Positions 18,072 to 20,171 of a stretch of 20,523 bases of DNA are shown one piece after another; within the stretch, counting starts at the first letter, position 1; the number at the start of each line of letters is the position of its first letter. Made by a program: the position numbers and the translations under genes. The DNA comes from a virus, in IMG/VR virus record IMGVR_UViG_3300009154_000350, positions 1 through 20,523 of that record; one strand, given 5' to 3'. A model generated the notes under the pieces. That model worked only from the letters and a program-made list of their open reading frames with translations. It searched no databases and was not told where the DNA came from.

Positions 18072-19466
18072 TTAGCCAATAAAGATAGGTAAAGGAAGTA
18101 TTGCATCATCGGTTGCATGTTCATGGATCTTTTCGTAAATACTAGGATCCCATTCCTGTAACATCATAATCATGCGTATATTCAATAATAAACTAGCAAC
18201 CAAGTCATCGTGTTCGCCTACTTTTGCCTCAAATCCTAGTCCTTTGGATATGTAAGCTTTTAACTGACTAATTAATGGCTTAGAGTGAATTTGTATAGTG
18301 CCAGATTCAATAAGTTGTTTTAATTTAGCGCAGATTGATATTTTTGATTTATGCGTGGTATTAAATCCTTTTCTAAACTGCCTAACATGGCCTTTTCTAA
18401 TAGGTTCACTTAAGAATAATCCTGGAAATGTTTCTTCACCTAGTTCGTTTATTGCAACTAGCGCAGCTTCACCGATTGTATTATTTTCCACTGAATAATA
18501 TATACTGCTATTGCTTCCTCGTGCAGTGCATTGATCATCGATGTATCTACAAATATCTCTCATAATTCGCACTTGCTGTTGTATCGGAGTAGTGTTATGA
18601 TGCCACTCTGCTACCTGTTTAAATCCAGGCAATTCAAAAACCTCTATTCCGGCAAAATCACCGCCTGTGCCTAGACATGGATCCAAGCTGATGATATGTG
18701 ATGCATTAGGATTAATATCCTCATACCATCGAACTTGTCCCATTTTCATTTTAGGCTCACGGCCTAGGTCATTTAAATCTGATAAAGTTAACGAGTTTAT
18801 TAATGTTTCTTCAAATACCAAGAACTCACACTCGTGCTCACGTCTGAATCGTTCCTCTCCGATACGTGCTAACTCTTCATTTTTCCACTTTTCGTCCCTC
18901 TCGGGATGTTCGCTCCAGTGCGCCTTAAATGGAGAAAATCCGTTTTTCCCTACTGCCTGAATGTTTCCATATTCGTCTTCCCTCTTATTGGCCTCATTCC
19001 AAATTACTGCAAACTGATCTTCGTCGCTATTTGGAGTGGATGTGATAATTGCTTTACCACCTGTGGCAAGAGTTGGAGAAATAGATGTCCAAAATTCGCT
19101 TGCAATATTAGGAGGCACAAAGGCAAATTCGTCGCAATTTTTTGTTATAAAACAATCATTTACGATAAACTTGTGTTCTGATTGATCAACTTCAATGATA
19201 TCAAAAACATCTACATTAGTATTTTTTGTTAGGTTAGTTATTTCTGATAAACCGTGAACGGTGTCAATAAAATCACCTACTTTGAGATCTTTTAATTGAA
19301 CTTTTACACCATATGAAAAAAAGGTATGCTGTTCTGTTGCAGAAACGCATTCTCCAGTTTTTATCATAATTGTCACTGTTGGCTTTGAGGGAGTTTTAGA
19401 AACTCCCCTAAAATCTCTCCAGCCGTCCGGGGTTAATATTTCGTATTCATTGTTTTCAGCAAACAT
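18072..19466 (-). CDS. 17: C-intein fused to C-terminal part of terminase large subunit (gp17)
   Basis: The 464-residue product has two parts. Residues 1-110 are an intein C-fragment: it begins [16 protein letters not shown], has a block-B-like [10 protein letters not shown] (T44, H47), a [10 protein letters not shown] segment, block F ([15 protein letters not shown]), and ends [10 protein letters not shown] with the terminal Asn at 110. Residue 111 is Cys, the +1 extein nucleophile. Residues 111-464 are terminase. They start with the Walker B acid pair (CDEFAFVP, D112-E113) and the coupling motif (ITSTPN), and continue into the RNase H-like nuclease with D262 (ISLDPCLG), E327 (YYSVENNT) and D420/D421 ([10 protein letters not shown]), matching the T4 gp17 catalytic triad. 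Trans-splicing with the upstream ORF would give a ~522-residue enzyme that pumps DNA into the capsid and cuts headfuls. A weak GAGAG precedes the ATG. Confidence 0.93.
19137..19466 (-). other. split intein C-fragment (IntC, 110 residues)
   Basis: This coding segment carries intein blocks B, F and G on their own start codon. Its opening (MF, then LTP-G-- F-G) resembles the C-fragment of the AceL-TerL intein as I remember it. The last residue is Asn (AAT), needed for cyclisation and release; the residue before it is Lys instead of the usual His. The next codon is TGC (Cys+1). No endonuclease domain is inserted. Confidence 0.9.
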
Positions 19467-19558
19467 AATAATCTCTCAACATCGGATTCTGCCGAATCTT
19501 CCCACACATAGTACGTTTTTATGTCCCTGTGTTTTAATAATGCAAACTCGTCATGTGA
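19436..19558 (-). pseudogene. open frame in the intein gap, possible homing-endonuclease remnant
   Basis: Between the stop of the N-part and the start of the C-part one frame stays open for 41 codons (stop at 19433-19435). It has no ATG except near its end. The peptide includes FALLKHRDIKTYYVWEDSAE, and the hydrophobic-Y-x-V-W-E pattern recalls the C-terminal strand of Vsr-like/EDxHD endonucleases. It overlaps the C-intein start by 31 bases. Free-standing Vsr-like endonuclease genes are known between the halves of fractured, split-intein phage genes, so this may be the last piece of one. The peptide is short and the match is by eye. Confidence 0.3.
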
Positions 19559-20171
19559 TTATTTGATTCGCATTGTATGTTCTTGAATATAAATCGACAA
19601 GTGAAATATCTTCTTCGACCAGTGTATTTTTATTGCGTATTCTTACAGTAGTGTCTCCATCTAAACAGTAGAGTAATGATAGTGACATACCTCGGCCAGT
19701 CGTTGGCGTAGTAGTTTGCGCTACAATTCTTGAACCGTTGTCGAACTCAATACTTTGTTTGTTGTAACTAGTAACGCCTGCTCTAATACTATCTGGACAT
19801 AGTTCATATGCATATCTAATCCTAGACATGATTTCCATAGCACCGGTGTGTTTATGCGCTGCTACTAGAATTGTACTATTGTCGATAAACATTGCATACC
19901 ATAGAAGATATCCAGCAGCAGTGGTGGTCTTGCCAGTCTGCCTTGGAAGCATGTTCACATTAAATCTATTATCGTGATAACTGTCTATTAATCTTTTTTG
20001 ATATTCAAATGCCGTATAGGACATTTTGCCTTTTGTTGGATGTTGAATATGAAAGTAGTTATCAAGAAAATAATGAGGATCTTCAAGGCATTTTGCAAAT
20101 TCTATTAAGTCTTGTTCGGTAAATACCTGTTTTTTGTGCGCTGTTTTAATTAATGAATTGTCTGCTGCCAT
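19551..20171 (-). CDS. 17: N-terminal part of terminase large subunit (gp17) fused to N-intein
   Basis: The product has 206 residues. Residues 1-168 are the N-terminal ATPase half of gp17: helical lead, YTAFEYQKRLIDSYHDNRF (52-70), Walker A LPRQTGKTT (75-83), TILVAAHKHTGA, and the adenine/coupling region QTTTPTTGRGMSLSLLY ending at Y168. Residues 169-206 are an intein N-fragment starting CLDGDTTVRIRN (block A, catalytic Cys169, conserved D-T) and ending LVDLYSRTYNANQIIT before a TGA. The protein alone cannot hydrolyse ATP normally because the Walker B acids are on the other ORF. The ATG at 20171 lacks a strong Shine-Dalgarno; a hairpin lies 17 bases upstream. The break is unlikely to be a sequencing error, because both fragments end or begin exactly at intein-type boundaries with an 84-base spacer. 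Confidence 0.93.
   Translation of the reverse strand: MAADNSLIKTAHKKQVFTEQDLIEFAKCLEDPHYFLDNYFHIQHPTKGKMSYTAFEYQKRLIDSYHDNRFNVNMLPRQTGKTTTAAGYLLWYAMFIDNSTILVAAHKHTGAMEIMSRIRYAYELCPDSIRAGVTSYNKQSIEFDNGSRIVAQTTTPTTGRGMSLSLLYCLDGDTTVRIRNKNTLVEEDISLVDLYSRTYNANQIIT
19554..19667 (-). other. split intein N-fragment (IntN, 38 residues)
   Basis: This segment runs from the catalytic Cys codon (TGT, 19665-19667) to the last codon before TGA. It contains only block A; block B is on the other half. Classic split inteins keep about 100 residues on the N side, so this is the short-N, atypical arrangement. Confidence 0.9.

Follow-up and report, generated by a model that had tools for sequence, protein, structure and literature searches.

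A fractured phage terminase gene with an atypically split intein at the Walker B motif and a deleted homing endonuclease

Split inteins are regarded as arising as by-products of selfish genes, and the stages that follow the loss of the selfish driver, a homing endonuclease (HE), are rarely seen. In 2009, Dassa reportedly described fractured gp41, NrdA, NrdJ and IMPDH genes that carry a split intein together with a Vsr-like (EDxHD) HE. The nearest characterised split inteins to the one studied here are AceL-TerL, Cat and GOS-TerL, whose IntN/IntC fragments measure 25/104, 30/104 and 37/115 aa, respectively; GOS-TerL begins with Ser1 (PMC11766414). In mycobacteriophages, several sites at the ATPase motifs of the terminase large subunit (TerL) are occupied by inteins that are spliced as single polypeptides, and split inteins are unmentioned in that work (PMC5050341). 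The PolB intein of the jumbo phage MIJ3 is split, with an HNH endonuclease between the halves (PMC6892783). The operator bound by the T4 endonuclease I-TevI is similar to the homing site of this enzyme and overlaps its late promoter (PMC2988022). Here, we describe a fractured TerL gene with an atypically split intein and without an HE, the loss of which is seen in the sequence, in IMG/VR virus record IMGVR_UViG_3300009154_000350; the 20,523 nt analysed are referred to as the window.

In the window, TerL is encoded on the minus strand by two consecutive ORFs that lie in the same frame and are separated by a gap of 84 nt with two in-frame stops between them. ORF-N (20171..19551) encodes 206 aa, comprising 168 aa of TerL and 38 aa of IntN, and ORF-C (19466..18072, stop at 18074..18072) encodes 464 aa, comprising 110 aa of IntC and 354 aa of TerL. 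The TerL N-extein (19668..20171) contains Walker A (MLPRQTGKTT) and the beginning of Walker B (SLSLLY); the C-extein (18075..19136) opens with Cys+1 followed by DEFAF (CDEFAFVPP...) and supplies the remainder of Walker B and an RNase H-like nuclease domain. When the exteins were joined without the intein parts, the resulting protein of 522 residues scored 66.7 bits against Terminase_6N (Pfam), compared with 27 and 22 bits for the single ORFs; the score of the window TerL against Terminase_6C (Pfam) was 25.3 bits. Moreover, T4 gp17 (PDB 3EZK) aligned with the joined exteins over the full length and through the seam (E 2.1e-48), the seam falling inside Walker B (SLLY|CDEFAF in the window versus AMIYIDECAF in gp17). 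Both Pfam domains and the homology to gp17 identify it as a T4-type terminase large subunit. The initial annotation had assigned the halves of gp17 to two consecutive ORFs, with all terminase motifs and about 522 residues after removal of the intein. Both ORFs lie at the coordinates given there, the count is exactly 522, and all motifs are in place on two full-length halves. Nor does the split reflect a slip in sequencing: apart from the two in-frame stops, an overlapping IMG/VR record (L001/L083, perhaps from the same sample) is identical to the window across 2473 nt, and the same TerL site is split in dozens of further IMG/VR records.

IntN (38 aa, CLDGDTTVRIRNKNTLVEEDISLVDLYSRTYNANQIIT; 19554..19667, minus strand) starts with Cys1 and is followed by the ORF-N stop TGA (19553..19551); an IntN HMM matched the same position in ~70 relatives. 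IntC (110 aa, MFAENN..DCFITKN; 19137..19466, minus strand) contains the TxxH block-B motif ATEQH, in which T44 and H47 were invariant in alignments A1 and A3, and is closed by Asn110. Its penultimate residue is Lys, which replaces the usual His and is common to the window's subfamily. The Cys1 codon starts at 19667 and the Cys+1 codon at 19136, and relatives are alike in this respect. An intein N-fragment at the end of ORF-N and a C-fragment running to FITKN before Cys+1 at the opening of ORF-C, as originally proposed, were confirmed in the sequence, and Cys169 of ORF-N and Asn110 of ORF-C are indeed Cys1 and the last intein residue. Profile searches with the window's own sequence gave modest support for the intein assignment: the window intein matched PF14890 at E 1e-4, but IntC scored below the Pfam gathering cut-off, and TIGR01445 (NCBIfam) gave 22.9 bits, under its cut-off of 24.5. 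A search of PDB sequences with the window intein returned one entry, CatC (6DSL, E 2e-4), and far stronger matches came from a profile built from 22 related fragments, to CatC (6e-10), gp41-1 (6e-7) and then DnaE, DnaB and VidaL inteins. The predicted fold of a fused relative, L139 (pLDDT 72, moderate), had the inteins gp41-1, RadA, Cat and VidaL as its top PDB matches. By its Cys1, Cys+1, TxxH motif, terminal Asn and intein homology, the window intein is a class-1-like HINT intein, and with its short IntN and long IntC (38/110 aa) it is atypically split. Pairwise dN/dS for IntC was 0.1-0.36 where measurable, the window's own value being near saturation, and IntC appears to be under purifying constraint.

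Like AceL-TerL, Cat and GOS-TerL, the window intein lies in a terminase and combines a short IntN with a long IntC. Its IntC is homologous to CatC (6DSL) with only remote sequence similarity, and it has Cys1 where GOS-TerL has Ser1. The Cat consensus C-extein opens with Cys-Glu, whereas that of the window opens with Cys-Asp-Glu-Phe, and in loci of the Cat type (L159 and L160, SHN|CEFLGS) the site is further along the terminase than the window's. This comparison, made via CatC and the CEFLGS loci, agrees with the earlier impression that site and sequence are unlike those of AceL-TerL. Because the TerL site differs from that of Cat, the window carries a different allele; the intein is predicted to work like a Cat- or AceL-style trans-splicing intein and represents a separate Walker B allele family, which in the window has lost its endonuclease. 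With the fractured genes attributed to Dassa, the locus shares the break at the intein and, in relatives, an HE gene that parts the two halves and whose C-terminal domain is probably Vsr-like; it differs in its atypical split point, in the deletion of the HE from the window and in the HNH/endonuclease VII-like C-terminal domain that some relatives carry on the same N-terminal domain. From the MIJ3 intein it is set apart by the host gene and by the HNH endonuclease present there (PMC6892783).

The spacer between the two ORFs measures 84 nt (19467..19550, minus strand), compared with about 870-1380 nt in HE-bearing relatives. In L002, L003, L012 and L033, an ORF of ~310 codons lies at this position between IntN and IntC; its terminal sequence in L002 is ...YYVWEDSAENDVKDIICLLQTLNTKY. 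When a profile of these four ORFs was compared with all six frames of the window, one match only was obtained (19543..19436, E 1.6e-12), aligned to model positions 277-312 of 312. In the window, only the 36 C-terminal codons of this ORF remain (19436..19543, stop at 19435..19433, minus strand), out of frame with the two TerL ORFs, overlapping the start of ORF-C and opened by no ATG. Within this remnant lies the probable Shine-Dalgarno sequence of ORF-C (GAGAG, 19473..19477, minus strand); relatives have AAGGA/GGAG at the same position. Pfam and NCBIfam matches of the spacer peptide to CutA1 or XkdX were set aside as chance matches, and its identity was supplied by the relatives. No Pfam match was found for the HE ORF and no relative of its profile among PDB sequences; phage protein families gave endonuclease hints, and a mediocre model of the L012 HE (pLDDT 74, pTM 0.43) had AbaSI and Vsr as its top PDB matches, both weak (E 2e-3 to 1e-2). 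We read the spacer ORF of the relatives as a homing endonuclease, and the model suggests that the intact enzyme is probably Vsr-like. The HE gene that defines Dassa-type loci is thus present between the intein halves of relatives and reduced to 36 codons in the window. Some relatives have GCATT at both ends of the stretch that is deleted in the window, which suggests a deletion between short repeats; the tail overlaps both the start of ORF-C and its ribosome-binding site, which would explain why it was retained. The initial annotation had correctly recognised a fractured terminase with a split intein, but it overlooked the HE remnant and the widespread mobile family to which the locus belongs.

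A scan of IMG/VR with IntC yielded 105 relatives, of which 80 were kept; in almost every one of the closer relatives, TerL is broken where it is in the window. The relatives fall into two subtypes, ...TKN|C (as in the window) and ...SHQ|C. Both subtypes have HEs with the N-terminal ~147 residues in common, but the C-terminal domain in the SHQ|C type is different and HNH/endonuclease VII-like; in the HE ORFs of L104, L111, L134 and others, this domain replaces the Vsr-like one, an apparent swap at one homing site. An intact HE lies between IntN and IntC in L002, L003, L012, L033 and others, and in L090 a stop codon breaks the HE frame. HE-less split loci comprise window/L083 (spacer 84 nt), L091 (86 nt, with a similar stump), L084 (15 nt), L108 (33 nt), L130 (28 nt), L136/L140 (8 nt) and L142/L144 (273 nt, with an HNH-type stump); the sister of L091, L099, still has the HE, with 86-89% DNA identity on both flanks. 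Including the window, about seven HE deletions were counted, a figure that depends on the number of independent records. HE-less relatives have retained Cys1, TxxH, the terminal Asn/Gln and Cys+1. In L137, L139 and L141, a single ORF reads IntN-SLNNLLSDYMNQ-IntC; its IntN is identical to that of the split, HE-bearing L134, the intein DNA is nearly identical, and the intein is read as a re-fused contiguous one. By their sequences, the relatives span the whole cycle, namely empty, occupied with HE, HE-deleted and one re-fused intein. In L085, L096 and L105, a copy of DEFAFV lies in frame with IntN, so that the IntN end (...VLN-DEFAFV or similar) is a mimic of the C-splice junction without Cys.

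Several observations point to homing of the cassette. In filled L104 and empty L043, the 2301 nt that begin exactly at C+1 and run downstream are 99.35% identical, but identity upstream is only 85.7%, a pattern of one-sided co-conversion as would be expected from recent homing. In a tree of 64 TerL C-exteins, the window TerL was placed among intein-free relatives, and the presence of the intein required ~10 changes, at least 8 of them forced by well-supported branches. Moreover, L139 and L134 have their intein DNA in common; synonymous change between their exteins, by contrast, has reached saturation.

In HE-carrying loci, a copy of insertion-site DNA lies directly on a T4-type late promoter ahead of the HE, usually in the form GACGAGTTTGCATTTGTATAAATA, and the HE start codon follows within ~15 nt in most loci. 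Among 38 distinct HE-bearing or long-spacer loci, 31 had a stretch after IntN that matched their own C-extein DNA over 17 nt (p <= 0.01 versus shuffles), and (T/C)ATAAATA was found after IntN in 31/38. When a degenerate form of the element was searched for in IMG/VR, all 43 of 43 matches lay between IntN and HE. The element is untranslated in the DEFAFV frame in most loci, yet 27 of 33 differences fell at wobble positions of that frame (relatedness not corrected). The possibility that the extein of each locus gave rise to its spacer copy by gene conversion was set aside because the two often have different codons, as in L002 (GACGAGTTTGCATTTGT versus GATGAATTCGCATTTGT). The window keeps the truncated left half of the element (GACGAGTTTGCATT = DEFA(F); 19539..19552, minus strand) and then passes straight into the HE tail, the TATAAATA late promoter being gone; TATAAATA was absent from all HE-less loci examined. 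As with the I-TevI operator, a copy of homing-site DNA overlaps or abuts the HE promoter (PMC2988022), and we propose by analogy that the element may serve HE autorepression; here the locus is a split intein, the HE belongs to another family and repression is putative. A limited literature search found no homing-site-mimic operator described in a fractured-gene locus. In L103, L131, L093 and L106, the HE has an extra N-terminal extension (~35-110 residues) and there is no recognisable operator-promoter element.

We consider it highly probable that the fractured gp17/TerL is joined by trans-splicing through an atypically split, class-1-like Walker B intein, and that an HE once lay between the halves and has since been deleted. 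IntN would bind IntC, Cys1 and Cys+1 would carry the acyl shifts and Asn110 would cyclise, and the ligated 522-aa terminase would regain Walker B and could power packaging. The former HE, with its conserved N-terminal domain, putatively Vsr-like nuclease domain and own T4-type late promoter, would have carried the cassette into TerL genes that lacked it, until a deletion, probably between short repeats, took the promoter and ~276 codons and left behind the tail that bears the ORF-C ribosome-binding site. The intein would now be immobile, and its loss would kill TerL. A more general proposal, for which we see an even chance, is a partly reversible homing cycle of invasion, an operator-restrained HE, HE deletion at short repeats, retention of the halves for the sake of TerL and, in some lineages, re-fusion, with the window as a trapped mid-stage; no description of a split intein reverting to a cis intein was found in a limited literature search.

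The two ORFs might instead encode separate subunits that assemble without splicing, the intein pieces being baggage, like NrdA of phage Aeh1, which is split by an insertion of mobE; genes in pieces that function without splicing are known, and such a reductase is cited in PMC10448857. We regard this as quite unlikely here: the break parts the Tyr of Walker B from the residue preceding the catalytic Asp, the splicing residues are preserved in HE-less relatives, IntC is constrained, and L139 has fused its halves yet retained the whole intein. It is less likely still that TerL is broken and decaying while a second copy serves the phage. The window, a fragment of only 20.5 kb, leaves room for such a copy elsewhere, but neither half is shortened or lacks a motif, the genes for uvsX, ssb, primase and a DnaB-like helicase in the same block are intact, and dozens of records show this arrangement again.

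It is hardly credible that faulty sequencing or assembly has split an intein gene that is in fact contiguous; both ORFs do happen to share one frame, but they are separated by two in-frame stops and by an HE tail in another frame, the overlapping record is identical, and relatives are split by a whole gene. As for the 36-codon stump, a functional short gene or leader peptide might explain why the deletions in the window and L091, which belong to different sublineages, end at nearly the same HE codon. This, too, is improbable: the frame lacks an opening ATG, the stump is wholly lost in L084, L108, L130 and L136, and the ORF-C ribosome-binding site and start within the kept tail account for its retention. 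In related phages, this one TerL site is found empty, occupied, without the endonuclease and re-fused, so that the fate of a nuclease-less split intein, trapped or domesticated, is directly testable. The family also provides naturally occurring Cys1 split inteins that have a short IntN and sit at a new site, and these are of use in protein ligation.

Other insertions and genes were noted in passing. Elsewhere in the window, a 397-aa protein (10847-12040, minus strand) overlaps the UvsW-like helicase gene and had no PHROG match at 1e-5. L002 (2676-3655) and L003 (~1390-2320) have a contiguous intein with LAGLIDADG-like motifs at Walker A (GRQMGK|ALS...THN|T), in a TerL that is also split at Walker B. 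In Salicola phage SCTP-2 (MF360958.1; L082, L207, L208), TerL is distributed over three far-apart genes, gp534, gp267 and gp224 (429356-429748 on the minus, 256428-257321 on the plus and 215993-218077 on the minus strand, respectively), each annotated 'terminase large subunit'. The breaks fall at Walker A and Walker B and carry split-intein parts, and gp224 has an additional contiguous mini-intein near motif III.
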